A DNA stretch of 39,644 bases from Chloroflexota bacterium (GTDB taxonomy: Bacteria > Chloroflexota > JAJPGV01): contig JAJPGV010000028.1 of assembly GCA_021325635.1 (NCBI GenBank), positions 1 through 39,644 of the forward strand, read 5' to 3'. The notes under the pieces are model-generated. The model searched no databases. It was not told the origin of the DNA and saw only the letters and a program-made list of their open reading frames with translations. Below, piece after piece: positions 7,267 through 30,459 of this stretch. The first letter of the stretch is position 1. The number at the start of each line of letters is the position of its first letter. Made by a program: the position numbers and the translations under genes.

Positions 7267-7282
7267 TAGACTCGAGAAGATG
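7267..7282 (+). promoter_or_regulatory. Leaderless promoter -10 of the MmcQ-like gene
   Basis: TAGACT at 7267-7272 is followed by seven bases and then ATG 7280. No Shine-Dalgarno sequence is present. This spacing places the transcript start at the start codon. Confidence 0.4.
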
Positions 7283-7624
7283 CAGGCGGACTTTGCCCTG
7301 AGGACCTGTCGGAGCTTGCCGGGGGCGACCGAGGGCTACCCCTTCGGACCTGGAGCGCTGGTGTTCAAGGTGGCTGGCAAGATGTTCGCGATCGCCCACG
7401 ATTCCCGCATAAGCCTGAAGTGCGATCCCGCGCTTGGCCTGGTCCTGCGCGAGACCTACCCCGCGGTAACGGCCGGCTACCACCTGGACAAGCGCCATTG
7501 GAACAGCATCGAGCTGGACGGGTCGGTGGACGACGACGAGTTGCGCGACTGGATTCAGGATTCCTATGACCTGGTGGTGGCGTCGCTCAGTCGCTCCCAA
7601 CGGGCGGCACTGACCTCCGCTTAG
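7280..7624 (+). CDS. MmcQ/YjbR family protein
   Basis: A 114-residue protein with CRSLPGATEGYPFG near the N-terminus, VFKVAGKMFAI and HWNSIELDGSVDDDELRDWI, all characteristic of the MmcQ/YjbR (CyaY-like fold) family. Proteins of this family have been called DNA-binding, but their cellular role is unclear. ATG 7280 is preferred over GTG 7241 because family members begin close to the LPGATE motif and because a -10 box lies seven bases upstream. It is the first gene downstream of the pilus operon and is probably transcribed separately. Confidence 0.75.
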   Translation: MQADFALRTCRSLPGATEGYPFGPGALVFKVAGKMFAIAHDSRISLKCDPALGLVLRETYPAVTAGYHLDKRHWNSIELDGSVDDDELRDWIQDSYDLVVASLSRSQRAALTSA

Positions 7625-7679
7625 CTCCGGAAGGCTCATGGACCGGCGCGCGTGCGCTGCGCCGGCCTGCCTCGTTTTC

Positions 7680-7703: not shown

Positions 7704-9743
7704 GTGAGCAGGCTCGTGCTGGCCGATTTGAACCCGGCCCAGCACCGCGCCGCGACGTACGGCGATGGTCCGCTGCTCGCTATCGCCGGTGCTGGCACCG
7801 GCAAGACCAAGACGCTGGCCGCGCGGGTCGCTTACCTGATCGACCAGGGCGTCCCGCCCGAGCGCATCCTGCTCCTCACTTTCAGCCGCCGTGCAGCGCA
7901 GGAAATGCTTGGCCGGGCCGGCCAGATGGTCGGCCGAACGCAGGTGGCGAAGGTGTGGGGGGGGACATTCCACGCGGTCGCCAACCGGCTGTTGCGGGTG
8001 CACGGCCATGCCGTCGGGGTGCCGCCGAACTTCACCGTTCTCGACCAATCGGACTGCGCCGACCTGATGAACCTCATCCGCACTGAACAGGGGTGGTCGG
8101 AGTCGAAGCGGCGCTTTCCCAAGAAGGACACACTGGCCGCCATCTACAGCCGCACGGTCAACACCAGTATCAAGCTGGGGCAGGTGCTGGAGACGTGGTT
8201 CCCGTGGTGCGCCGACGACCTGGACGACATGCGCGGCGTGTTCCAGATGTACCTGGCACGCAAACGCGAGCAGGCGGTGCTGGATTACGACGACCTGCTG
8301 CTGTTCTGGAAGGCGCTGCTGCAGGCGCCGCAGGCCGGTGAGCTCATCGCCGGCAGCTTCGACCACGTGCTCGTCGACGAGTACCAGGACACCAACGCGC
8401 TGCAGGCCGACATCCTGGCGAGTCTCCGCCGGAGCAGCCGCAACATCACCGTGGTCGGCGACGACGCCCAGGCCATCTATTCCTTTCGCGCCGCGACAGT
8501 GAAGAACATCCTGGCTTTCCCGGAGCGGTTCCCGGGCGCCGAGATCGTGAAGCTGGAGCAGAACTACCGCTCCACGCCACCTATCCTGGCGGTGGCCAAC
8601 GCCGTCATGGGTGAGGCCCGCCAGCAGTACGACAAGGAGCTGTGGTCTCGACGGCCGGGCGAGGCGCGCCCGCGGCTGGTGACTTGTCTCAACGAGACGC
8701 AGCAGGCGCAGGTGGTTTGCGATCGCGTCGTCGAGCACCTCGAGCAGGGCATCCCGCTTACCCACCAGGCGGTGCTGTTCCGCACCGGGCATCACAGCGA
8801 CTTGCTGGAGGTCGAACTCACCCGTCGCAACGTGCCCTTCGTGAAGTACGGTGGCCTCAAGTTCATCGAAGCTGCCCACGTCAAAGACATGCTGGCCTTC
8901 CTGCGCATCCTTGAGAACCCGGACGACGACCTGGCTTGGTTTCGCGTCCTCCAGTTGCTCGACGGCATGGGGCCGCGCCACGCCCAGGCGGTATTGGGCC
9001 AGCTGCGCGGCCAGCACAGTCCGGGAGAGGCGCGGCCGAACGGAGCGCTGGACCGCTTCCTGGCGGAGCCGGTTGAGGCGCCCGTGGCGGCGTCCAAACA
9101 GCTGGACGAGCTGCGGAACGCACTGCGCGACGCACGTTCGCTCGGGCCGGCCCAGCGCGTCGAGCGGCTGCGGCGCTTCTACGACCCGGTGTTCGAGCGC
9201 GCGTACGACAACGCCGCCGTCCGCGTTCGCGACCTGGAACAGCTGGAGCAGCTGGCCGGCACATACGGTACGACGCGCGACTTCATCACCGACCTGACCC
9301 TCGATCCGCCGGCTTCGACAAGCGATTTGGCCGGGCCGCCGCTGCTGGAGGAGGACTACCTGATCCTGTCCACCATTCACTCGGCGAAGGGGTGCGAGTG
9401 GGACGTGGTGCACGTTATCCACGCGGCCGACGGCAACATCCCGAGCGACATGGCCACCGGCAGCGCGGAGGAAATCGATGAAGAGCGCCGGCTGTTCTAC
9501 GTGGCGCTGACACGCGCCAAGGACTGGCTGCACGTGTACTTCCCGCTTCGCTACTACCACCGGCGCCACGGACGGGGTGACGCGCACTCCTACGCCCAGC
9601 TCACCCGGTTCATCTCGCCTGCCGTCAAGGCCCATTTCGAGCTAGACGTCGTCTATGACGAGCAGGACTCCGACGCCTTGGAGGCAGAGGCCGTGGCCCG
9701 GACGCCCGTGGACGCGCTGCTGAACCAGCTCTGGGCGGACTAG
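7704..9743 (+). CDS. UvrD/PcrA/Rep-family SF1A DNA helicase
   Basis: A 679-residue protein with all main SF1A motifs: the Q-motif region LNPAQHRAA, Walker A AGAGTGKTKT (residues 28-37), motif II DEYQDTN (from D225), motif III GDDAQAIYSFR, motif IV QNYRSTPPI, motif V STIHSAKGCEWD and motif VI LFYVALTRAKDWL. It unwinds DNA 3' to 5' in repair and replication restart. The length is close to UvrD/PcrA. I prefer GTG 7704 because a -10 and an SOS-like box lie directly upstream. ATG 7638 or 7686 would extend the protein by 22 or 6 residues, with no SD support. The next gene follows after 14 bases. Confidence 0.92.
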   Translation: MSRLVLADLNPAQHRAATYGDGPLLAIAGAGTGKTKTLAARVAYLIDQGVPPERILLLTFSRRAAQEMLGRAGQMVGRTQVAKVWGGTFHAVANRLLRVHGHAVGVPPNFTVLDQSDCADLMNLIRTEQGWSESKRRFPKKDTLAAIYSRTVNTSIKLGQVLETWFPWCADDLDDMRGVFQMYLARKREQAVLDYDDLLLFWKALLQAPQAGELIAGSFDHVLVDEYQDTNALQADILASLRRSSRNITVVGDDAQAIYSFRAATVKNILAFPERFPGAEIVKLEQNYRSTPPILAVANAVMGEARQQYDKELWSRRPGEARPRLVTCLNETQQAQVVCDRVVEHLEQGIPLTHQAVLFRTGHHSDLLEVELTRRNVPFVKYGGLKFIEAAHVKDMLAFLRILENPDDDLAWFRVLQLLDGMGPRHAQAVLGQLRGQHSPGEARPNGALDRFLAEPVEAPVAASKQLDELRNALRDARSLGPAQRVERLRRFYDPVFERAYDNAAVRVRDLEQLEQLAGTYGTTRDFITDLTLDPPASTSDLAGPPLLEEDYLILSTIHSAKGCEWDVVHVIHAADGNIPSDMATGSAEEIDEERRLFYVALTRAKDWLHVYFPLRYYHRRHGRGDAHSYAQLTRFISPAVKAHFELDVVYDEQDSDALEAEAVARTPVDALLNQLWAD

Positions 9744-9757
9744 GACCGCCAACGAGC

Positions 9758-10099
9758 ATGTCGGCCGATCTCTTCGCCGGGATTCAGGTCAAGGACTACG
9801 CCGCAGCCGTGGCCTGGTACCAACGGCTGTTCGGCGCTGCCCCCTCATTCGTCCCTACCGACGGTGAGGCCGTGTGGCAGCTCGGCGAGCACTGTTTCGC
9901 GTTCCTCGAGCTGAAGCCGGAGCATGCCGGTCATGCCAGACACCTGCTGTTCGTCGAGGACCTCGACACACGGGTGGCGCAGATTGCCGATCGCGGACTC
10001 CGGCCCGCTGAGCAGGAAACATTGGCCAATGGCGTTCGAAAGGTGGCCTATCGAGATGAGGACGGGAACGAGTTCGCCTTCGGCGGTGCCCCGCTGTGA
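9758..10099 (+). CDS. VOC (glyoxalase/bleomycin-resistance) family protein
   Basis: A 113-residue protein with one VOC module pair: MSADLFAGIQVKDYAAAVAWYQRLFG, the HLLFVEDLD strand and a closing DEDGNEFAFGG. VOC proteins are small metal-binding enzymes or binding proteins. The substrate cannot be read from the sequence. It lies 14 nt after the helicase gene and is probably co-transcribed with it. Confidence 0.75.
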   Translation: MSADLFAGIQVKDYAAAVAWYQRLFGAAPSFVPTDGEAVWQLGEHCFAFLELKPEHAGHARHLLFVEDLDTRVAQIADRGLRPAEQETLANGVRKVAYRDEDGNEFAFGGAPL

Positions 10100-10124
10100 C
10101 CCCAAGCGCCGCCTGAGCGGGGCA

Positions 10125-10140
10125 TACAATCCCCGTCGTG
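10125..10140 (+). promoter_or_regulatory. Leaderless promoter -10 of the SRAP gene
   Basis: TACAAT (10125-10130) is seven bases upstream of GTG 10138, and no SD is visible. The -10 sits in the loop of a short GGGG/CCCC inverted repeat (10119-10134). Confidence 0.45.
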
Positions 10141-10851
10141 TGCGGCCGCTACGGGTACGAGAGCCCGGAATTCACCGAGACCCGCTTCCAGGCTCAGCTG
10201 CTGCCCGATGTGCCACCCGAGATCCTGGTCCCGCGCTACAACATCGCGCCGACACAGCCGGTCCTGACCGTTGCACCGTCCAAGCGCCTCGGTGGGCGGC
10301 GCGGGATCAAGAGCGTGGTCTGGGGCCTGACGCCCGGCTGGGCGCTGCGGGACCGGTCCAAGCCGCGGTCCATCAACATCAAGACTGAAGGCATCTTGGA
10401 CCGCCCGACCTATCGTCATCTGCTGCTGCACAACCGCTGCGCTGTGCCGGCGGATGGCTTCTACGAATGGCAGCACAACAATGGCAAGACCGGTCAGCCG
10501 TACTCGATCGCCCTGCGCGGCGGCGAGCCCTTTGCCTTCGCCGGCATCTGGACGGCGACCAAGGATGAGCGGGATCAGTGGCTGGTGTCGTGCGCGATTC
10601 TGACGACCGGTCCCAACGAGCTCGTAGCCCAGTTGCACGACCGCCAACCGGTGATTCTGACGCGCGACCAGGAACAGACCTGGCTCGACGCCGATGTCAC
10701 CGATGCTGGCGAACTGGTGCCGATCCTCAGCCCCCTGGACCCCACGGCCATGGAGCTGTTTCCCGTCTCGCGCCTCGTCAATAGCGTGGCCAACGAGGGA
10801 CCGAGCCTGCGCCAGCGCGCGCCGGAGTCGCTGCAGGCTTCGCTGTTGTAG
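10138..10851 (+). CDS. SOS response-associated peptidase / HMCES-type abasic-site shield
   Basis: A 237-residue SRAP-domain protein. After removal of Met1, the invariant Cys2 (MCGRYGY) forms a covalent bond with abasic sites in single-stranded DNA. The other active-site residues are visible: N35 in PRYNIAPTQ, E110 in DGFYEW and H167 in LHDRQPVIL. The family is E. coli YedK / human HMCES and protects abasic sites. The GTG start is fixed by the requirement for Cys at position 2. Its own promoter appears to be leaderless. It fits the neighbouring DNA-damage genes. Confidence 0.92.
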   Translation: MCGRYGYESPEFTETRFQAQLLPDVPPEILVPRYNIAPTQPVLTVAPSKRLGGRRGIKSVVWGLTPGWALRDRSKPRSINIKTEGILDRPTYRHLLLHNRCAVPADGFYEWQHNNGKTGQPYSIALRGGEPFAFAGIWTATKDERDQWLVSCAILTTGPNELVAQLHDRQPVILTRDQEQTWLDADVTDAGELVPILSPLDPTAMELFPVSRLVNSVANEGPSLRQRAPESLQASLL

Positions 10852-10896
10852 GGTTCGCCGCAGCCGTCTGTCGGCGCCTCACTCGCGCGCAGGTCG

Positions 10897-11370
10897 TCAG
10901 GCCCGAGTCAGACCCTCAACGGAAGGTTCGTGGCTGCTCGCAAGGTGCTCCTCCAGGCGGTCGAAGAACGCTTGCTGAGCGGGGTGAATCAGTACTCTGG
11001 CCTGAGCGATGGGCACGAACTCCACCTGGTCGACTTCCCACGACGCGCACCTTGGATGCGCATCGCCGGGACAGGGTGCGCAGAAAGCGTGGACGCGTTT
11101 GCCGTTCTTATAGGTGACAAATTCCAGCGGCGTGAGCACAGCCTCGACGGCGACGCCAGCCTCTTCCAGTGTTTCCCGAACCGCCGCCTGCTCGAGCGAT
11201 TCGCCGTGCTCCGGCCAGCCCTTCGGCAGACTCCACGGCGCTTTCTTGTTGTACCAGCCGGAAGGATGGACGAGGAGCACCTCCAGGCCGCTGTCAGATC
11301 GCCGGTACAGCAACACCCCGGCCGAGTCGTGCCGGCGGGCGCCGCGCTCCGGTTTGCCAGCCTTTTCCAT
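10897..11370 (-). CDS. NUDIX hydrolase
   Basis: A 157-residue protein containing the complete Nudix box GWPEHGESLEQAAVRETLEEAGV split as G-x5-E-x7-RE-x2-EE-xG, preceded by the WSLPKG strand. Nudix enzymes cleave nucleoside diphosphates linked to another moiety. The substrate is not predictable here (MutT-like sanitation or Ap4A hydrolysis are possible). I chose ATG at 11370 because upstream residues do not resemble the family. The gene is convergent with the SRAP gene and divergent from the small gene at 11466. Confidence 0.85.
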   Translation of the reverse strand: MEKAGKPERGARRHDSAGVLLYRRSDSGLEVLLVHPSGWYNKKAPWSLPKGWPEHGESLEQAAVRETLEEAGVAVEAVLTPLEFVTYKNGKRVHAFCAPCPGDAHPRCASWEVDQVEFVPIAQARVLIHPAQQAFFDRLEEHLASSHEPSVEGLTRA

Positions 11371-11430
11371 CCCAGCACTGATTCTCCACCCACATTGGCG
11401 GCCTACACAAACGCGGCGCAGTTCCCGGCA

Positions 11431-11468
11431 TTGCACACTGTACATATGTGCAGTATTATCCCGTCATG
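11431..11468 (+). promoter_or_regulatory. Promoter with embedded palindrome (leaderless)
   Basis: TTGCAC (11431-11436), a 17-base spacer and TATTAT (11454-11459) form a good sigma-70-type promoter. ATG 11466 follows six bases later with no SD, so the transcript is probably leaderless. The spacer contains GTACATATGTGC (11440-11451), a partial match to the SOS core (two mismatches) and similar to the box at 7680. Confidence 0.6.
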
Positions 11469-11636
11469 GAACCGCTGTACGTGCTGCATCTACGGCTGGC
11501 GAGCATCGGCGTTATCCCGTGGGCGGTGTTCTCAAAGGCAGCCTATGAGGCGCTGCTCGAAGCTGTCGAAGTGGGGGAGTTTGGCCCGGCTGCCATCGTC
11601 GAGCTTGAGTCCGAGCACCTTCCGGAGGCGGCTTAG
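11466..11636 (+). CDS. Small hypothetical protein (56 aa)
   Basis: A 56-residue acidic protein beginning MEPLYVLHLRLASIGV. I do not recognise a family. The start is defined by a consensus promoter whose -10 lies six bases upstream. An in-frame ATG at 11448 falls inside that promoter and is rejected. The next gene starts at the base after its stop codon, so the two genes are probably co-expressed. Confidence 0.55.
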   Translation: MEPLYVLHLRLASIGVIPWAVFSKAAYEALLEAVEVGEFGPAAIVELESEHLPEAA

Positions 11637-11996
11637 TTGGACCCGCAGAGCAGGTGGTATCGGGGCTGGATCGGGGTCGGCGGCGAGTTCAAGGTGATGG
11701 CCTCCAACGGCAGTACGCCGGAGGTGCTCAAGGCCGACGTCACGGAGTTCCACGACCGCGCGGATCGGCTCGATTCCTTCGATTGGGGCCGGCCCAGCCG
11801 GGCCGCCTACATGCTGGCTCGGACACTCCTTGTGGACGCGCTCGGCCGCCCGACTGCCGATGCGTTCGACCCGGCCGATTTCATGGACCAGGTGCTGATG
11901 CGGTTCCCGATGGGTCCAGACTGGCAGCTCACCGCCGCGGACATCCGTCGCTGGGCGGCCGCCACGCGAAGCGAGGCGACGCCGCGTCCGAGATGA
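11637..11996 (+). CDS. DUF6166-like protein
   Basis: A 119-residue protein. The pattern (YRGWIG near the start, FDWGRPSRAAYMLARTLLVDALG in the middle, LTAADIRRW near the end) resembles DUF6166 proteins, which have no established function. The TTG start immediately follows the stop of the 56-residue gene. Internal starts are possible. The last ~20 residues lie antisense to a decayed YbaK-like pseudogene, so the C-terminus may have been altered by decay or rearrangement. Confidence 0.55.
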   Translation: MDPQSRWYRGWIGVGGEFKVMASNGSTPEVLKADVTEFHDRADRLDSFDWGRPSRAAYMLARTLLVDALGRPTADAFDPADFMDQVLMRFPMGPDWQLTAADIRRWAAATRSEATPRPR

Positions 11997-11999
11997 CAT

Positions 12000-12298
12000 C
12001 GTCGGCCGATGTCATCCGCAGGTTCTTCACGCCATACGCCGCCTTGAAGGCTCTGCTATCCAGTCGCAGATTGGCCGGCACGACGATCAGGATCAGGCGG
12101 TTGTCCGCATGGCAGACGAGGGCCTTGGCGCCGTCCTCCAGCGGCGTGCCCCGAACGCCGGGCCGCCTGTTCACTGGTGAACACGGGCTCGTGCTGCAGC
12201 ACCCGGTGCTCCACGCCACTGGCCGCGAGCAGGTCCAGAACCCCCCGCACCAGCGGTGACTCATCGGCGGGAGTGTCCATCTCGTACGGACGAAACAT
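12000..12298 (-). pseudogene. Decayed YbaK/ProX-like aminoacyl-tRNA deacylase
   Basis: Two minus-strand frames together give a YbaK-type sequence. The first half reads VLDLLAASGVEHRVLQHEP and VFTSEQAAR. The second, one base out of phase, reads GTPLEDGAKALV, RLILIVVPANLRLD and KNLRMTSADDV. An extra base near 12157 explains the frame change. The C-terminal glycine/proline motif (GxxPPFG) expected of the family is missing, and unrelated sequence follows. The 5' end is ATG 12298 or 12280. YbaK-type enzymes hydrolyse mischarged tRNA. Here the gene is almost certainly inactive, unless the extra base is a sequencing error. Confidence 0.6.
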
Positions 12299-12367
12299 GC
12301 CATAGTTGCCGCGCACATGGTGGTCGAGGTGCAACGCAAGCCAGCCGACGTTCGGGCGTCGGACCCC

Positions 12368-13494: not shown

Positions 13495-13539
13495 ACCTGT
13501 CACTAGCGTGGGCTGTGGAAACGAGTTCGAGGCCCGCAC

Positions 13540-14937
13540 ATGGAATTTCCCTTCACTTTCGAGTCGGACAGCCAGGTTCGCTCCTTCTCCTGGCCGTCGT
13601 TCGACCGGCGCCTGTGGTTAGTCCTCGTCATCCCGGTGCTCGCGGTCGGCGTGTTCCTCCAGCGCCACCGCGACACCGGGGCGCCGGTTCACCCGGGCAC
13701 TGTTATGGTCTCGGCCACTCCGACCGGCGCAGCCGTCAGCGTTGACGGCAAGTCGCGCGGACCCGCCCCCCAGCAACTGAGTCTCGCCGCCGGCACGCAT
13801 CGCATCGAGCTGCGGCGCAGCGGCTACCTGACCGACAGCTTCGCGATTGACGTTCGGCCGGACGCCACACTCGACCTGAATCGTGAGCTGTGGCCTGAGC
13901 GGCCACACGCCACCTTGTTGCGGCCACCGCTGCCGGGGACTGCTGTCGCCGGCGCGACGTTCCTGGCCGATGGCCGCCTGGCGTTAGCCGTGGCCGTCTC
14001 GGCCGAGGAACGCCAGTTATGGGCCTATGCCGGCGACTCCGATAGTTACCAGCGGCTTGGACCGTCCGGCGCATCGGCAGTGGCTGGGAGCGCCGATGGA
14101 CGCACGGTCGCCTACATCAAACGGAATCAGGCGTTCGGCGTTGAGAGCGGACCCGCCTGGACAGTCCGAGCGATCGATTCGGCCGGATCGGACCGGCAGG
14201 TCTACCAGGCCGGCAGCGGGGATGGCCAGGCGGTTGATCTGACGCTGTCGCCCGACGGGCGCCGGATCGTCCTCGCCGAGCGCAGCTCACTCGGAAGCAG
14301 CTCCCGGACTAAGCTCGTGCTCTTCGACGCGGGCCGTGAAGCACCGCAGCCGTTCACCGAACTTCCCGCCGAGCTGGTGCCAGGCAGCTACGTCTGGGCG
14401 CCGGACGGATCACGGGTGGCCTTTGCCGTCACGACGCCCACCGGCCAATCGCTGTGCCTGATGTCCACCGATGGGCGGTTTCGCTATCTCGGCGAGGTCG
14501 CGTCCGTGGGCAGCACCATCGCCCCGCTGCCGGTCGCGTGGTCCCGGAGCGACCAGCTGGCCTTCGAACGTCAGGGTGCGCCGGGCGGCGGCATCGGTCC
14601 ATTCGGCGTCTCTTCCTCACCACAGGTCGCACTCACCGAGGCCGCTGAAGGCAGCGTGCAGGTGCGGGGCAGTGGCGTCCCCGCGGGCTGGCTGGACGAC
14701 GGCTCGCTACTGATTCTCCACCGCCCCAAGCGGGACGGTCAGCTTGAGCTCAGCCAGCTGACAAACGATGGCGCCACGCGAACCCTGGCGCAGCTGCCCG
14801 TGAAAGGCGGCAACTACGCCGGTGAGTGGGACGGCCAGCGACGCCGGCTCATCGTGGGTGCCAGTCGCGACGCGACCCTGGGCGGCTCCGGCACCGATTT
14901 CTACCTGGTTGACCTCAGCGGCGGGGAGGTGTCATGA
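13540..14937 (+). CDS. Membrane-anchored PEGA-domain protein with TolB-like propeller
   Basis: A 465-residue protein with one transmembrane helix (about residues 26-42), then a PEGA domain (VMVSATPTGAAVSVDGKSRG, THRIELRRSGY; about 52-105). A repeated-strand region follows with LSPDGRRIVLAE, VWAPDGSRVAFA and similar blades typical of TolB/WD40-like propellers. The start is supported by GAGG at 13529-13532. PEGA domains occur in surface proteins, and the propeller suggests protein binding outside the membrane. As first gene of the conjugation operon it may be a mating-channel or surface adhesion component. It ends with a 4-nt overlap with the next gene. Confidence 0.65.
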   Translation: MEFPFTFESDSQVRSFSWPSFDRRLWLVLVIPVLAVGVFLQRHRDTGAPVHPGTVMVSATPTGAAVSVDGKSRGPAPQQLSLAAGTHRIELRRSGYLTDSFAIDVRPDATLDLNRELWPERPHATLLRPPLPGTAVAGATFLADGRLALAVAVSAEERQLWAYAGDSDSYQRLGPSGASAVAGSADGRTVAYIKRNQAFGVESGPAWTVRAIDSAGSDRQVYQAGSGDGQAVDLTLSPDGRRIVLAERSSLGSSSRTKLVLFDAGREAPQPFTELPAELVPGSYVWAPDGSRVAFAVTTPTGQSLCLMSTDGRFRYLGEVASVGSTIAPLPVAWSRSDQLAFERQGAPGGGIGPFGVSSSPQVALTEAAEGSVQVRGSGVPAGWLDDGSLLILHRPKRDGQLELSQLTNDGATRTLAQLPVKGGNYAGEWDGQRRRLIVGASRDATLGGSGTDFYLVDLSGGEVS

Positions 14938-15932
14938 AACGGCTGCTCTGCCCGGCCTCGGTTCTGGCGCTGGCGGTCCTGCTGCTTACGCCGGCAGCGG
15001 TGGCGGCCCAGACCGGTAACCCCGCTCCGAATCCGGCCGGTGGGCTGATGGGCCTGCTGCCCGACCCCAAGCAGTGGGCCGGCGATGTGTTCAGCCAGGT
15101 GTTCGTCAACCTGCTGCAGAGCATCGCCACGGGCCTGCGGCAGATCGTCTCCACCGTCCTGAACAGCCAGGTCAATGTGATCACGCGTACGCCGCCCGAA
15201 GCGTCGTATGCCAGCGCCACCGTCCAGAACCTGTGGGGCGTTATGCGCACCGTGGCGAATGGTGCGCTGGCGCTGGCCGCCATGTGGGCGGCCTTCGATC
15301 TCATTGCCCGTGAGCAGCTCGGCTCGCCCTACCACGAGGCAATGGAGATCCTGCCGCGCCTGGCGCTCGGAGCCTTGCTGGTCAACACCAGCCTGTCGTG
15401 GGCGCAGCTCAGCATCGACGCCAACAACGCCCTGTGCGGCCTGGTCTCACAGGGCAGCCTGCCCGCCTGGGACCAGACAACCGAGATCAGCCAGCTGCTC
15501 ATCCAGGTGCTGGCCACCCTGATCTATCTGATCACCGCCCTGCTTCTGCTGCTGCAGATGCTCATCCGCATTGCCCTGCTCGACGTGCTGGTGGTCGTCG
15601 CACCGATCGCGTTGTTGTGCGGCATCCTGCCGCAGACCCAGCGCTGGTCGGGGCTGTGGACCAGCACCTTCTTCGGCGCCGTCTTCACCCAGTTCGTCCA
15701 GATGGTGGCGCTGCGCCTGGGCAGCTCGATCCTCGGCGACCTGACGCCACTCGGCGCCGACGGGCGCCTCCTGTCGATCTTCTTTGGCATCGCCCTCATG
15801 GCGCTGACCCTGAAAATCCCCGGTCTCATCGGCCGGCATGGCGGCGACGGCCTCAGCTTTGCCCGCTACCTCGCTTACCGCCAGGCCGCTCGGGGTCTCG
15901 ACTCGCACGGCAGCCGGGGAGGCGACAAGTAA
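14934..15932 (+). CDS. TrbL/VirB6-like conjugation channel protein
   Basis: A 332-residue protein with a signal peptide (residues 1-25, cleavage near VAAQ), a soluble segment and then about six hydrophobic helices. The stretch LLQMLIRIALLDVLVVVAPIALLCGILP is characteristic of TrbL/VirB6-type proteins, followed by a polar C-tail. It should form the inner-membrane part of the type IV secretion channel. It overlaps its upstream neighbour by ATGA and the next start by TAATG, so translation is coupled. Confidence 0.75.
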   Translation: MKRLLCPASVLALAVLLLTPAAVAAQTGNPAPNPAGGLMGLLPDPKQWAGDVFSQVFVNLLQSIATGLRQIVSTVLNSQVNVITRTPPEASYASATVQNLWGVMRTVANGALALAAMWAAFDLIAREQLGSPYHEAMEILPRLALGALLVNTSLSWAQLSIDANNALCGLVSQGSLPAWDQTTEISQLLIQVLATLIYLITALLLLLQMLIRIALLDVLVVVAPIALLCGILPQTQRWSGLWTSTFFGAVFTQFVQMVALRLGSSILGDLTPLGADGRLLSIFFGIALMALTLKIPGLIGRHGGDGLSFARYLAYRQAARGLDSHGSRGGDK

Positions 15933-16843
15933 TGCCCGCCGCGGTGCTGCTGCTGGCCTTGACCGGACTGGATCGCGACGCCCTGAAGGTGCTCGGCGGG
16001 CTGGCCGTGGCCCTCGCTATCGCGCTGGCCTTCGCTATCTCCAGCTTCATGGCCACGCTGGGCGCGATCGCGCCGGGCGAGACGGTCCATCGCACCGAGC
16101 CCAAGACCATTCCCGCCGAGCAGCTGGTGGTCATGGAGGACGCGGCCGGCCTGTGCGGCCTGCCGTGGCAGGTGCTGGCGGCCATCGCCGATGTCGAATC
16201 GGACTTCGGCCGCAACATGGCAACCTCCGAGGCCGGGGCGATTGGCTACGGCCAATTTCTGCCGCAAACGTGGGCTGCATACGGCGGCGATGGCAATCCC
16301 TACGACTACCGCGACGCCATCCCGGCGATGGCGCGCTATCTGTGCGCCAACGGTGGACCGCAGGACCTGCGCGATGCCGTGTACGCCTACAACCACGCCG
16401 GCTGGTATGTCCGCGATGTCCTGACGCTGGCCGCCAAGTATGGGTACCTCGTTCCAGGCGGCGCCAACTCGCAGGTGGTCGAGATCGCTCGTTCGCAGAT
16501 CGGCATGCCCTACGTCTGGGGTGGCGCCAGTCCGGAGACGAGCTTCGACTGCTCGGGGCTGGTGCAGTGGGTCTACGGCCGCATTGGCGCCCGGCTGCCG
16601 CGGACCGCGCAGCAGCAGTTTGATGCCACGGCGCGAGTGCCCATCGATCAGCTGCAGCCGGGCGACCTGGTGTTCTTTGCCCAGACCTACGCCTCCAGCG
16701 ATTACATCACGCACGTCGGCATCTACACCGGCAACGGGCGCATGGTCAATGCGCCCAGCCAGGGCGACGTCGTGCGCGACATGCCGGTATTCGGCGGCTA
16801 CTGGCTGGAGCACTACGCCGGCGGCGGACGGGTGGTGCGCTGA
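15932..16843 (+). CDS. VirB1-like cell-wall hydrolase: transglycosylase SLT plus NlpC/P60
   Basis: A 303-residue bifunctional enzyme. An N-terminal membrane helix (about residues 18-45) anchors it. An SLT-type lytic transglycosylase domain has the catalytic Glu E89 in IADVESDFG and the GAIGYGQFLPQTW motif. The C-terminal NlpC/P60 peptidase has Cys C207 (FDCSGLVQW) and His H261 (ITHVGIYTG). One domain cuts glycan strands and the other cuts stem peptides, as in conjugative hydrolases of Gram-positive elements such as TcpG/CwlT types. It would open the wall for the mating channel. Confidence 0.9.
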   Translation: MPAAVLLLALTGLDRDALKVLGGLAVALAIALAFAISSFMATLGAIAPGETVHRTEPKTIPAEQLVVMEDAAGLCGLPWQVLAAIADVESDFGRNMATSEAGAIGYGQFLPQTWAAYGGDGNPYDYRDAIPAMARYLCANGGPQDLRDAVYAYNHAGWYVRDVLTLAAKYGYLVPGGANSQVVEIARSQIGMPYVWGGASPETSFDCSGLVQWVYGRIGARLPRTAQQQFDATARVPIDQLQPGDLVFFAQTYASSDYITHVGIYTGNGRMVNAPSQGDVVRDMPVFGGYWLEHYAGGGRVVR

Positions 16844-16935
16844 TGACGCTGCCCTTTCAGCTGTTCGGCCGGCCGCCGTGACGCCCAGGCCTGAATCCCG
16901 TCATCCCCACATTTCGAGTTCAAAGGAGTTCACCC

Positions 16936-17169
16936 ATGGATGCCATCAATGCCTTGTTCAACAACCTGCTCAACGTCGGGCTCGGCGTCGCCGTGGCGGT
17001 CGCCGCCTTCTTCCTGATGAGCGGCGCCTTCGTCTACATGTCCTCCGGCGGGAATCCCCGCCAGATGGAGAAGGGCAAGACAGCCATCGTCAACGCGGTC
17101 GCCGGCCTGGCGCTGGTGCTGTCGGCCAAGGTCGTCGCCCAGATGCTGCAGACCGCGCTGGGTCATTAG
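16936..17169 (+). CDS. VirB2/TrbC-like pilin subunit
   Basis: A 77-residue protein with two hydrophobic helices (about residues 12-35 and 50-68) separated by a short basic loop SGGNPRQMEKGK. This topology is typical of VirB2-like subunits in PrgI/VirB4 systems. AAAGGAG at 16922-16928 is a strong SD seven bases before ATG 16936. The 92 bases between the hydrolase and this gene hold no convincing gene. Confidence 0.7.
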   Translation: MDAINALFNNLLNVGLGVAVAVAAFFLMSGAFVYMSSGGNPRQMEKGKTAIVNAVAGLALVLSAKVVAQMLQTALGH

Positions 17170-17176
17170 GTGCGGT

Positions 17177-17557
17177 ATGGCGCTGAGGCATCACGAGATC
17201 CCGACTCACCTGAACGTCGAGGACCGCGCCTTCTTCGGGCTGTCGGTCCGCCAGTTTACCGACCTCATCGCCGGTCTGGCCGGCACCTACAGCCTGTGGA
17301 ACACCTGGCCCGACCTGCCGATCGGCCTGCGGGTTTCCCTGGCGGTGCTTTCGTTGCTGATGACCGTGGTGGTGGCGCTGGCCAAGCCCGGTGGGCGGCG
17401 CGTCGAGCAGTGGCTGTTCGTGCTGCTGCATTACCTGCTGACTCCCAGGCGGCTGGTGTGGTGCCCGCGGCCGGTCGACGAGCTCGACTGGCGCACCGAG
17501 AGTCGGGAATGGGCCGAAGGCTCACCGACGCCCGCCTGGTCGGAGGCCCGGCCGTGA
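17177..17557 (+). CDS. PrgI family protein (VirB3-like)
   Basis: A 126-residue protein. The N-terminus HHEIPTHLNVEDRAFFGLSVRQF is diagnostic of PrgI proteins. Two transmembrane helices follow (about residues 28-50 and 52-70). PrgI proteins are VirB3-like inner-membrane partners of VirB4 and usually lie directly upstream of it. An AGGTG SD precedes the start, and the 3' end overlaps the next gene by four bases. Confidence 0.88.
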   Translation: MALRHHEIPTHLNVEDRAFFGLSVRQFTDLIAGLAGTYSLWNTWPDLPIGLRVSLAVLSLLMTVVVALAKPGGRRVEQWLFVLLHYLLTPRRLVWCPRPVDELDWRTESREWAEGSPTPAWSEARP

Positions 17558-18207
17558 TCGGCCGTGGTTCCGGCCAGCAAACCCTGGTCGCGCTGGATCG
17601 CATCGAAGACTCAGTCGCCTACCTGCGCGGCGGTCTGGCGCGGGCCGTCCTGGAGGTCGGCAGCATCAACTTCCGGCTGAAGGGCGAGGTCGAGCAAGAG
17701 GCCATCATCGCCGGCTATGCCGCCTGTCTTAACAGCCTGACATTCCCGGTCCAGATTCTCGTGCGCGTTCTGCCGATCGACGTCGAGCGCTACCTGACCG
17801 AGCTGGAAGAACGTGCCCGGCGTGAGCTGAACGATGCGCTCATCGAGCTGGCGCGCGACCACCTCCAGTTTGTGCGCCGGCTGGCACGCAGCCGCACGCT
17901 GCTCGAGCGTCGCTTCTACGTCGTGGTGCCCGGCGGCGACAGCCAGTTCGCGGTGAAGCTGCCGTGGGTCTCCCGCCGGCGCGAGCACAGGACCGACAAG
18001 ACCAGCCTGGAACAGCAGATCACGTTTCGCTGCGAGGAGGTCGAGCGTCAGCTGACGCGCTGCGGACTGCAGGTCCGGCGCCTTGGCGACACCGACCTTG
18101 CGCAGCTCTACTACTCATCGTTTTGCCCCGAGCTGGCTCGCCTGCAGCGGCTCAAACGCGACCTCAGCGACTACACCACCGCGGCCGTCCTGCCGGCGGC
18201 CGCTTAG
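17554..18207 (+). CDS. TraC-like protein (VirB4 N-terminal partner)
   Basis: A 217-residue soluble protein. GTG 17554 has GGAGG at 17542-17546. The sequence has YLRGGLARAVLEVGSINFRLK, then NSLTFPVQILVRVLPID, then a helical region and LEQQITFRCEEVERQLTRCGL. This is the N-terminal beta-rich domain seen in TraC/VirB4 proteins, encoded here as a separate gene directly before the ATPase. It probably assembles with VirB4 at the membrane. Confidence 0.7.
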   Translation: MIGRGSGQQTLVALDRIEDSVAYLRGGLARAVLEVGSINFRLKGEVEQEAIIAGYAACLNSLTFPVQILVRVLPIDVERYLTELEERARRELNDALIELARDHLQFVRRLARSRTLLERRFYVVVPGGDSQFAVKLPWVSRRREHRTDKTSLEQQITFRCEEVERQLTRCGLQVRRLGDTDLAQLYYSSFCPELARLQRLKRDLSDYTTAAVLPAAA

Positions 18208-18216
18208 GAGACCATC

Positions 18217-20046
18217 ATGCGATCCCTCAAGATACGCCGCCGGGCCAGGCCCGAAGCCCTGTCGCCCGACGAGCGGCGGCTGGCACTCGGCGTCCGCACC
18301 ATTGCGGACCTCATCGCACCCGCCTCGGCGCAGATCGGCCGCGACCACATCCGGCTCGACTACCACTACTGCCGCGCGCTGGCAGTGCACGGCTATCCAC
18401 GCACCGTCGCGCCGGGCTGGCTGTCACCACTCATCGACTTCGAAGCACCCCTCGAGCTGAGCCTGCACGTGCATCCGCTTGAGACGGCCGAGATGGTGCG
18501 CGCCCTCACGCACAAGCTGGTGCAGCTGCACTCCTCGCGGCTGCTGGCAGCCAAGGACGGCCGCCTGGCCGATCCCGAGCGCGAGGTGGCCTACGAAGAC
18601 ACCGAGCATCTGCGCGATGCGCTGCAGCGGGGTGAGGAGAAGGTCTTCTCCGTCGGGCTCTACATCCTGGTCCGGGCGCCCTCGCTGTCGGCATTGGATG
18701 ACCTCACGCGGCGCGTCGAGATCGCCCTCGACTCCATGCTGGCGCTGTCGCGGGTGTGCATTTTCGAGCAGGACTCCGGGCTGCGCTCCTGCCAGCCGCA
18801 AGGCTTCGACCAGCTACTGGTCACGCGCAACCTCGACACCAGCTCGCTGGCCACGACATTCCCGTTCTCGTCCTCCACACTCTCGATGGATAGCGGGGTG
18901 CTGTACGGCATCGCCCGGCACAACCACTCGCCGGTCATCTTCGACCCGTTCGACAGTTCCCTGGAGAACGCGAATGCGGTGGTGTTCGCCAAGTCCGGGG
19001 CGGGCAAGTCGTACTTCACCAAGCTCATGGCGCTGCGCAACCTGCTGGCGGGCGTCGACTTCATCATCATCGACCCCGAAGACGAGTACCGCAGGGTGTG
19101 TGAGGCGGTCGGCGGCCAGTATATGCGCTTGTCGAGCACGTCTTCGCACCATCTCAATCCTTTCGATCTGCCGCCTGCGGAGCCCGGCGAGGAAACGCGC
19201 GACCCGCTGGCCGAGCAGGTCGGCGAGATCCTGCGCCTGCTCGAGGTCATGCTGGCCGACAAGGACCGCGGGTTGAGCGCGCACGAGCGTGCGGTCCTGG
19301 ACCGGGCCATCTACACCGCCTACAGCCAGGCCGGCATCACTGCGGATCCGGCCACGCACGACCGGCCGGTCCCGCTGATGCGCGACCTGGCAGCAGTACT
19401 CGACGGCTGGCCCGGCGACGTGGCAGCCGATCTGGCCGTGCGCCTGCGCCGCTTCGTCGATGGCTCGCTGGCGGGCCTGTTCAGCGGGCCGACCAACGTC
19501 GCTCTCGACCGTCGGCTGGTCGTCTTCAACCTGCAGCGGCTCGAGGACGAGCTGCAGCCGGTCGGCATCCACCTCATCACCAGCTTCGTGTGGAACCAGG
19601 TACGCCGTGCCCGCAAGCCGCGGCTGCTGATCATCGACGAGGCCTGGAAGCTGATGCAGTTCGCCGAAGGCGGCGCCTTCATCGCCAGCCTCGCGCGGCG
19701 GGCTCGCAAGTACTACCTGGGCCTGCTGACCATCACCCAGGACGTCTCGGACTTTCTCAACTCCGATCACGGCCGGACGGTGCTGACCAACGCGTCCATC
19801 AAGCTGCTCATGAAGCAGGACAGCAGCACCATCGAGCCGGTCGTCAAGGCCTTCCAGCTGTCCGAGGACGAGCGCCAGTTCCTGCTGGCCTCGGGCAAAG
19901 GCGAAGGGTTGTTCTTCGCCCGCGGCAGCCATGTGGCCCTGCGGGTCGAGGCCAGCCCGGCCGAACACCGCCTCGCCACGACGGCGCCTCAGGAGCTGTA
20001 TGCGAATGCCACAGCGGCCGAGCCGGCGGCGGTGGCGGCGAGTTGA
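18217..20046 (+). CDS. VirB4-type conjugation ATPase
   Basis: A 609-residue protein with Walker A AKSGAGKS (residues 258-265), Walker B LLIIDEAWKL (from L470, acidic pair D474-E475), the DPEDEY motif and TITQDVSDF, all diagnostic of VirB4/TraC ATPases. The N-terminal domain before residue 250 is shorter than in full VirB4, which fits the separate TraC-like gene upstream. AGGAG at 18206-18210 precedes ATG 18217. It energises assembly of the channel and pilin extraction. Confidence 0.93.
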   Translation: MRSLKIRRRARPEALSPDERRLALGVRTIADLIAPASAQIGRDHIRLDYHYCRALAVHGYPRTVAPGWLSPLIDFEAPLELSLHVHPLETAEMVRALTHKLVQLHSSRLLAAKDGRLADPEREVAYEDTEHLRDALQRGEEKVFSVGLYILVRAPSLSALDDLTRRVEIALDSMLALSRVCIFEQDSGLRSCQPQGFDQLLVTRNLDTSSLATTFPFSSSTLSMDSGVLYGIARHNHSPVIFDPFDSSLENANAVVFAKSGAGKSYFTKLMALRNLLAGVDFIIIDPEDEYRRVCEAVGGQYMRLSSTSSHHLNPFDLPPAEPGEETRDPLAEQVGEILRLLEVMLADKDRGLSAHERAVLDRAIYTAYSQAGITADPATHDRPVPLMRDLAAVLDGWPGDVAADLAVRLRRFVDGSLAGLFSGPTNVALDRRLVVFNLQRLEDELQPVGIHLITSFVWNQVRRARKPRLLIIDEAWKLMQFAEGGAFIASLARRARKYYLGLLTITQDVSDFLNSDHGRTVLTNASIKLLMKQDSSTIEPVVKAFQLSEDERQFLLASGKGEGLFFARGSHVALRVEASPAEHRLATTAPQELYANATAAEPAAVAAS

Positions 20047-25566: not shown

Positions 25567-25914
25567 ATGGACCAAACAATGGCAGCGGGCACTGAATTGC
25601 CGGCCCAGGCCGTCACGGGCGCTGAGCCAACTAGCGCCGTCACTCCCGAGCACAAACGATCCGATCCCGACCTCCTGGCCTGGAAGCTGGCCTACACCAT
25701 CCCCGAGGCCGGCCTGCTCATCGGGCTTTGTCGGGCCAGCGTGTACAAGCTGATCGCGGATGGGCAACTGTCAACCGTCAATCTGGCAGAACGCGCGCCG
25801 CGCATCCTACGCGAAGAACTTCAAGCCTTCCTCCAGCGCAAAGCAGCGGCCGTGCAAGCCCGCCGGGAAGCCGTGGCGGCCACGCTCGGGACATCCGCCA
25901 GACGCTGGCGATGA
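25567..25914 (+). CDS. Excisionase-like HTH_17 DNA-binding protein
   Basis: A 115-residue protein with a MerR/excisionase-type helix-turn-helix (about residues 43-90): YTIPEAGLLIGLCRASVYKLIADGQLSTVNL, then RILREELQAFL. An AAAGGA SD precedes ATG 25567. It lies just upstream of the integrase and probably acts as the directionality factor (Xis) or as a regulator of element genes. Confidence 0.75.
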   Translation: MDQTMAAGTELPAQAVTGAEPTSAVTPEHKRSDPDLLAWKLAYTIPEAGLLIGLCRASVYKLIADGQLSTVNLAERAPRILREELQAFLQRKAAAVQARREAVAATLGTSARRWR

Positions 25915-25966
25915 TCGGCGACCGGCTGCTCGTAATCCAGCCATCAGAAGGGTAAGCTTCGATTTA

Positions 25967-25978
25967 GAACACACGTTC
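25967..25978 (+). promoter_or_regulatory. LexA (SOS) box abutting the integrase start
   Basis: GAACACACGTTC is a perfect match to GAACRNRYGTTC. It ends one base before ATG 25980, so a repressor bound here would cover the integrase start codon and promoter. This points to DNA-damage control of element excision. The site was read by eye and is not tested. Confidence 0.6.
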
Positions 25979-25979
25979 T

Positions 25980-27320
25980 ATGCAACGGCAGATAAGCTCC
26001 CGTAACCGCTACGGCGAGGGCAGCATCTATCAGGACAAGCAGGGCTACTGGCGGGCCAAGCTGTACACGCCCGACGGCGGGACCAAGTTCTACTACGGCA
26101 AGACCAAGAAAGAGGTCCGCGAGAAGCTCGCTGACGCCATGGGGCTGCTCAAGGACGGCCTCGCGCTGCCCTCGAATCAGCCGCTCGGCGACTACCTCGA
26201 GCAGTGGCTAAACAACGAAGCCCGCAAGGAAGCGATTACCGACAGCAGCTGGGTCTCGTACGAAGGCCACATCCGGCTGCACATCACGCCGGCCCTCGGT
26301 GCCGTTCGCCTGTCCGATCTGACGCCCGAGCACATCGATCGGTTAACCGGCGCGCTGGTCGCCAAGAAGTTGTCGGCCAAAACCATCCGCAACATCCGGG
26401 TCACATTGCGGGCGGCGCTGGAGCAAGCACGGCGCCGGGGCCACGTGGTTCGCAACGTGGTCGACCTGAGCGAGGCGCCGCGGGTGCCCCGCAAGGACAA
26501 GCGCGCCCTCACGCCCGAACAGGTTCGCGAAGTATTCCAGGCTGTGTTGACGCACCGGCTCGCCGCACTCTGGATTCTGGACGTCGCGACCGGGCTGCGC
26601 AAGAGCGAGCTGCTCGGCCTGCGCAAGGCCGACCTGGACCTGCAGATGCATGAGCTGCACGTCCTGGTGCAGCTGCGGCGGAACCGCATCACCGGGGAGC
26701 TCCAGACGCGCGAGCTGAAGACCCGCGAAGGCCGGCGGGTGATCGCCCTGCCCGAGGGCGTGATGCGCGTGCTCGAGGCCCACCTGACCAACCAGGATCG
26801 CGAGCGCGAGCTCGCCGGCGACGGCTGGCTCGAGTCAGGCTTCCTGTTTACGACAGACCATGGAACGCCCCTGGACGGCGACAACATCCTGCGCACCTTC
26901 CAGATATTGATCAGAAAGGCGGGGCTGCCGCATCTCACGATGCACGACCTGCGCCACGCAAACAGCAGCTTCATGGCGCTGTTGAACGTGCACCCGAAGG
27001 TGGCTCAGCGCCAGCTGGGCCACAGCCAGATCTCGACGACGATGGACATCTACACCCACGTGGCCGACGACAGCAGCCGTGAGGTTGCCGCCAAGTTCAA
27101 CAAGCTGTTGTTTCAGACCGCCGACGCGACGGTGGACGGCGTGGCCTACGGCTTTGATCTGCCCGAGCCCGACCGGGCCAACCTGGAGCTGCAGTCCAGG
27201 ATGGAAGGACGGTCGCCTGCGGAGATCGTGTGCAGCGCGCTGCGGTGGTACCTGGAAGCCGAACGGCGGCGTCGCGAGGAGTGGGCGGCAAACCGCTCAC
27301 TGGAGGGCGGCCTAGACTGA
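25980..27320 (+). CDS. Tyrosine recombinase (element integrase)
   Basis: A 446-residue integrase. The N-terminal arm-binding module begins RNRYGEGSIYQDKQGYWRAK, followed by a SAM-like core-binding domain and the catalytic domain. Active-site residues are R207 (ATGLRKSELLGL), H322 and R325 (MHDLRHA), H348 (QLGHSQ) and the nucleophile Y358 (DIYTHV). A C-terminal extension of about 60 residues (about 383-446), containing SPAEIVCSALRWYLEAE, looks like a ribbon-helix-helix-type module and is not part of standard integrases. No SD is visible. An SOS box overlaps the start region. Confidence 0.93.
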   Translation: MQRQISSRNRYGEGSIYQDKQGYWRAKLYTPDGGTKFYYGKTKKEVREKLADAMGLLKDGLALPSNQPLGDYLEQWLNNEARKEAITDSSWVSYEGHIRLHITPALGAVRLSDLTPEHIDRLTGALVAKKLSAKTIRNIRVTLRAALEQARRRGHVVRNVVDLSEAPRVPRKDKRALTPEQVREVFQAVLTHRLAALWILDVATGLRKSELLGLRKADLDLQMHELHVLVQLRRNRITGELQTRELKTREGRRVIALPEGVMRVLEAHLTNQDRERELAGDGWLESGFLFTTDHGTPLDGDNILRTFQILIRKAGLPHLTMHDLRHANSSFMALLNVHPKVAQRQLGHSQISTTMDIYTHVADDSSREVAAKFNKLLFQTADATVDGVAYGFDLPEPDRANLELQSRMEGRSPAEIVCSALRWYLEAERRRREEWAANRSLEGGLD

Positions 27321-29928: not shown

Positions 29929-30441
29929 CTAAATGGCGATCCGCTGCGCGAGCGGGGAGCTCTCTAATCGCCGCAGCAGCCAGATCAGCGCCGCCAGCAG
30001 GATGGCCAACGACAAGATCTTGAACTCCAGGCCAAGCAGAGGCAGGCTGCTTCCCATCACCATGGCACCCGCGGTACCCGCGAGTGGAATGACGCAGGTT
30101 GGTCAGCCAAAGCCGGCGATAGCGATGGCCAGCGTTGCCCCGGTTCCGACGCTGCCAGTCATCATTTCTCTGCGGGAGCGGTGGCAGGCCACCGCCAATG
30201 CCAACAGGACTCCCGTTAGAGAGGCCAACAGTACATCCAAGCCCAGGCCGACGTAGAAAAACGCTGCGCCGAAATGCGAAATCTCGAAGTCGGGCGTGGC
30301 GTAGGTCCGGGTGAAGATCGTTGTATTCTCGCCCGCCGAACGCAGACTGAACGTGTAATAGAGCCAGGTTAGAAGCACGGTGACTGTGATGACCAGAACG
30401 AAGTAAGGGCGCTGTCGAAGGACCCTGAGGGCGACGTCCAT
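29929..30441 (-). CDS. Membrane protein with in-frame UGA in a UPTC motif: candidate selenoprotein or nonsense-interrupted gene
   Basis: The frame starting at ATG 30441 (alternative 30459) reads through 112 codons, meets TGA at codon 113 (30105-30103) and then continues without stops to TAG at 29929, 170 codons in all. The second part (LAGTAGAMVMGSSLPLLG, FKILSLAILLAALIWLLRR) is clearly a membrane protein tail that belongs with the first (helices at about 13-30, 60-85 and 98-118). The TGA lies at the first position of UPTC, where related small membrane proteins, as I recall them, have CPxC. A 9-bp hairpin follows (30066-30086). Either selenocysteine is inserted or the gene carries a nonsense mutation. 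No SelA/B/C/D genes are in the window. Confidence 0.5.
30066..30086 (-). promoter_or_regulatory. SECIS-like hairpin downstream of the UGA
   Basis: On the minus strand CACTCGCGG (30086-30078) pairs with CCGCGGGTG (30074-30066), nine bp including one U-G, around a GUA triloop (30077-30075). The loop G is 25 nt after the UGA, and a G is first in the loop. Both fit the loose bacterial SECIS pattern (loop 16-37 nt from the UGA). The hairpin could also arise by chance in GC-rich coding sequence. Confidence 0.4.
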
Positions 30442-30459
30442 GCTCTTGCATTCTGCCAT

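Follow-up and report, generated by a model that had tools for sequence, protein, structure and literature searches.

A probable membrane-embedded UxxC selenoprotein, encoded in two copies in one Chloroflexota genome

The stretch of DNA analyzed here, which we call the window, is contig C18 at its full length of 39,644 nucleotides, one of the 63 contigs of a 4.64 Mb MAG. On its minus strand, an open reading frame at positions 29929–30441 runs from an ATG at 30441 to a TAG stop at 29931–29929. It contains a single in-frame TGA, at 30103–30105, and encodes 170 residues when this codon is counted as selenocysteine (Sec113). A second in-frame ATG lies upstream at 30459 and would add six residues, making the same position 119; comparison with the paralogue described below supports initiation at 30441. 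The TGA opens a UPTC motif in the context FG-U-P-T-C, and the cysteine of this UxxC/CxxC motif is encoded by a TGC at 30094–30096. A sequence-only reading of this DNA had proposed that the frame continues for 57 codons past the UGA with a coherent membrane tail, and translation bears this out: 57 sense codons follow, and the tail they encode is hydrophobic. Hydropathy analysis identifies four hydrophobic segments, at approximately residues 19–38, 63–91, 102–137 and 141–163 (numbered from ATG 30459), with UPTC inside the third, from which we infer a four-helix-type membrane topology. The neighboring genes encode a CAAX protease-like protein, a TetR regulator, a VanZ-like protein and a quinone-oxidoreductase-type protein, and no evident functional link to the TGA-containing gene was seen among them. 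Elsewhere in the window, at 25567–27320, the ORF translations include a small excisionase-like ORF followed by a tyrosine-recombinase-like integrase, which suggests that an integrated element lies near the gene.

A paralogue of the gene is located on contig C17. The two proteins are 67% identical, and the paralogue carries TGA at the same codon, again within UPTC; the two loci have different flanking DNA. Upstream of the TGA the copies differ at a proportion of 0.24 of non-synonymous sites (pN) and 0.72 of synonymous sites (pS), the latter being near saturation. Over the 46 codons downstream of the TGA, pN is 0.16 and pS is 0.62, and there are no indels. The synonymous excess over non-synonymous change in the tail is significant, both across codons 1–46 (p = 3.6e-7) and outside the hairpin described below (p = 3.1e-6). 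The in-frame UGA is thus flanked on both sides by conserved coding sequence, and purifying selection is equally strong before and after it. A dip in the synonymous rate around the UGA (pS 0.40 over 16 codons, compared with about 0.72) is not significant (p 0.11–0.28).

Cysteine is the usual counterpart of selenocysteine in homologous proteins. Four homologues from the same phylum (in genomes G351, G357, G363 and G112) have cysteine exactly in the UGA column, in the sequence FGCPSC or FGCPGC. This agrees with the proposal that the UGA, at position 113, occupies the place of cysteine in a CPxC-type motif; the column is filled by a Sec codon in the paralogue and by Cys in the four homologues. The paralogue and the Cys forms of G351 and G357 align end to end with the window ORF; these two Cys forms show 34–39% identity and read FGCPSC at the site. 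In an alignment of six sequences (A4; two Sec forms and four Cys forms, numbered from ATG 30459), the residues invariant in all members are L22, L33, R40, G64, R94, F117, G118, C/U119, P120, C122, P125 and G128. The second cysteine of the motif is invariant. The family is rare: of 400 genomes sampled from the phylum, about 1% have it. The Sec form is represented by two sequences, both in this MAG. G351, G357 and G363 appear to be large Ktedonobacteria-like genomes, and G112 belongs to another class.

Two of the Cys forms, those of G363 and G112, are cut short past the motif. In G363 (contig C8; loci L028/L042) the homologue ends soon after CPSC, although the closely related copy in G357 is complete. 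In G112 (L039, approximately 7279–7650, minus strand) the gene goes out of frame just past CPGC and the last hydrophobic stretch lies in another frame; either this copy has decayed or the assembly is in error there. We also considered whether the Cys form marks genomes lacking selenocysteine machinery and found this to be false: the Cys forms carry Cys instead of Sec though selA and tRNA-Sec are present in all four of their genomes. The distribution of Cys and Sec forms therefore does not follow that of the machinery, and lineages that decode Sec include holders of either form.

The genome that contains the window has a complete selenocysteine system. Contig C50 carries a sel cluster with selA (PF03841, E 3.6e-131), selB (recognized by its SelB winged-helix domains), a tRNA-Sec with anticodon UCA, and selD. 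Within locus L024 (G000:C50:370001-390000), the relevant segments are 7839–12308 and 13520–18800, with selD on the strand opposite to selA, selB and tRNA-Sec. The sel locus is compact and is followed by a MobA-like gene and an operon for a Sec-containing formate dehydrogenase. The formate dehydrogenase alpha subunit, adjoining the cluster, has its own in-frame TGA in a U-H motif, the canonical Sec motif of this enzyme. It resembles the window gene in its in-frame TGA, in the sel cluster it would share and in having a hairpin after the UGA; it differs in being a soluble molybdoenzyme (PF00384, PF04879, PF01568) with no sequence relation to the membrane protein. Around these loci TGA is the stop codon of 9 of the 23 ORFs checked; since it serves as an ordinary stop in these genes, the codon is not reassigned. 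Contigs C18, C17 and C50 agree in composition, with GC contents of 0.65–0.66 and tetranucleotide correlations (r) of 0.91–0.93.

The open tail and a downstream hairpin had been read, together with the motif, as three independent features of Sec insertion. We estimated how often the first two arise in this GC-rich genome from 1992 TGAs, sampled in the window itself and in two of the genome's other stretches of 20 kb. Of these TGAs, 25% precede an open frame of 57 codons or more, 31% a bSECIS-like hairpin with 6 bp or more, and 2.4% one with 9 bp or more. The local fold downstream of the UGA has a z-score of −1.7, with 13 of 200 shuffled sequences folding equally well. With such base rates the features are neither fully independent nor proof; tail and hairpin are weak evidence by themselves, and the case is settled by conservation.

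Two overlapping folds were compared as the candidate SECIS element. The hairpin originally proposed, a 9-bp stem with a GUA loop (CACUCGCGG-GUA-CCGCGGGUG; 30066–30086, minus strand), does exist in the window copy, where the stem begins 16 nt past the UGA and the loop 25 nt past it. It is an alternative fold confined to that copy: all nine pairs form in the window (−14.7 kcal/mol), compared with seven of nine in the paralogue (−0.6 kcal/mol), and we rejected it as a conserved SECIS. Both copies share an apical stem-loop, GGUAC-CGCGG-GUGCC in the window (30064–30078, minus strand) and GGYAC-CGYGR-GUGCC as a consensus, in which five of five pairs form in each copy and one pair changes from U-G to C-G. 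Its 5-bp stem closes a 5-nt loop that starts 29 nt past the UGA and has G at the second position. Published bSECIS rules call for an apical loop of 3–9 nt with G in the first two positions, an upper stem of 4–16 bp, a distance of 16–37 nt after the UGA, and a minimum free energy at or below −7.5 kcal/mol (PMC13188914). The shared element fits the loop, stem and spacing rules (PMC13188914), as hairpins commonly do by chance; its energy is −5.7/−6.7 kcal/mol in the window and −7.8/−8.6 kcal/mol in the paralogue, reaching the threshold in the paralogue only. A possible lower stem, CAUUCC / GGUGAUG (30055–30091, minus strand), surrounds the apical stem with six pairs and a bulged U. Its pairs are kept in both copies (6/6), including a two-sided change from U-G to A-U, a weak signal from two sequences. 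The shared stem-loop is therefore the likelier SECIS, with boundaries estimated from these two sequences.

On C17, genes for an ArsR-type regulator, a DUF169 protein and an IscA/HesB-type Fe-S biogenesis protein precede the paralogue on the same strand, the Fe-S gene being placed between the DUF169 gene and the Sec membrane protein. The Cys form of G112 has a DUF169 gene on either side. DUF169 (COG2043) genes thus accompany the membrane protein in two lineages, in its Sec form in one (L025, G000:C17, 7397–10506) and its Cys form in the other (L039, G112:C105, 6427–8852). Because the paralogue is directly downstream of DUF169 and IscA/HesB-type genes and the G112 homologue sits between DUF169 genes, the membrane protein probably serves a DUF169 redox/Fe-S-linked module. 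The paralogue region is flanked by two near-alike gene pairs, each an ICMT/PEMT-like methyltransferase with the next gene (L025, 4661–6012 and 14073–15209); the second methyltransferase looks frameshifted.

The gene almost certainly encodes a selenoprotein in which UGA specifies selenocysteine, as indicated by the conserved TGA, by homologues with Cys in place of Sec, by a tail under selection and by a complete Sec machinery. At the UGA, SelB and Sec-tRNA-Sec would insert selenocysteine, guided by the stem-loop just downstream. The predicted product is an integral membrane protein of about 170 residues with four hydrophobic segments and the UPTC redox motif at the third, where the UxxC pair could undergo reversible selenenylsulfide/dithiol chemistry. 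Its likeliest role, judged from the motif and its setting, is that of a small membrane-embedded thiol oxidoreductase. An AlphaFold model built from the one sequence is of poor quality (pLDDT 58), and a structure search with it gave no PDB match.

The main rival on function, for the same selenoprotein and in our view less likely, is that UxxC is a ligand for a soft metal or metalloid, acting in transport or binding, and not a thiol/selenol redox center. Small membrane proteins with paired cysteines, such as those of the MerT type, bind metals, and an ArsR-family regulator gene stands upstream of the DUF169, Fe-S and paralogue cluster on C17. A predicted MerT selenoprotein is also listed in a published inventory (PMC13188914). 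The window family, however, has no match to MerT (PF02411 was not matched; the sole hit was NF033560, at E 8.5, from one member) and none to any other metal transporter; CPxC is the classic redox motif as well, and an Fe-S biogenesis neighbor fits a redox role equally well.

Explanations that dispense with selenocysteine fare much worse. The TGA could be a nonsense mutation, leaving a pseudogene or a truncated 112-residue protein in front of a tail that is open by chance, as it is after a quarter of the sampled TGAs. The sequence-only reading had named this as its main alternative; it is refuted by the paralogue, which retains TGA at this codon and an equally constrained tail free of indels, with synonymous divergence close to saturation. 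Both the tail and the residues on either side of the TGA can also be aligned with Cys homologues that are intact, and we regard this explanation as very improbable. Even less credible is that another amino acid is inserted at TGA, by reassignment or near-cognate readthrough: the frame is indeed open through the TGA, but the codon terminates neighboring genes, the genome has a dedicated tRNA-Sec and SelB, and the homologues have Cys there and not Trp, Gly or Arg. An error of sequencing or assembly, conceivable for a single MAG contig, has a negligible chance, as the same TGA codon recurs on a second contig, where the surrounding DNA is different. Of the conditions that the sequence-only reading had set as refuting its proposal, none was borne out: the genome has the selenocysteine genes, homologues carry Cys at the site, and the paralogue in effect excludes a sequencing error. 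Because the TGA has been kept through near-saturated divergence with a constrained tail behind it, neither a nonsense mutation nor a sequencing error accounts for it, and selenocysteine insertion is the preferred reading.

The protein does not belong to a family we could recognize. Profile searches against Pfam and NCBIfam, including the NF04xxxx selenoprotein models, gave no match near any cut-off. The inventory of 2026 lists 119 prokaryotic selenoprotein families or subfamilies, among which there is no membrane protein of about 170 residues with this sequence (PMC13188914), and we found no such protein in the published open-access literature. The window protein has in common with listed bacterial UxxC selenoproteins (PMC13188914) the recoded UGA, a candidate stem-loop downstream, the UxxC motif, Cys homologues and sel genes in the genome. 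The putative mercuric transport selenoprotein (MerT, PF02411, C/SxxU) and the SO_0444 Cu/Zn efflux selenoprotein (UxC) are likewise small or integral membrane proteins with a paired Cys/Sec motif; they differ from the window protein in motif order and show no significant sequence similarity to it. Protein-based scans of genome contigs (two) and viral contigs (two) found no relatives, nor did a plasmid scan with the window protein as query. With a Cys homologue as query, the plasmid scan gave a marginal haloarchaeal match only, a membrane protein on a Halalkalicoccus sp. CGA53 plasmid (L048). This protein has a similar hydrophobic pattern and a TGS...GAGCAACG motif aligned at CPxC; it is Cys only, and the match is post hoc (tblastn E 0.07, nominal HMM E 0.002).

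Taken together, the gene very probably represents a hitherto undescribed family of selenoproteins. Its members would be UxxC proteins embedded in the membrane, with two copies in this genome, and the paralogue would link them to the module of DUF169 and IscA-type Fe-S genes. Such families stay hidden because gene callers truncate the protein at the UGA. Most prokaryotic selenoproteins known so far are soluble proteins with a thioredoxin fold or metalloenzymes; this one would extend the range to a small integral membrane protein whose Sec sits in a motif near or within the membrane, and it comes from a Chloroflexota-like lineage that has been little sampled. It may act as a selenol-based transmembrane carrier, of a new type, for electrons or metal(loid)s, and its function is open to testing through the paired Sec and Cys forms and the DUF169 / Fe-S neighborhood.
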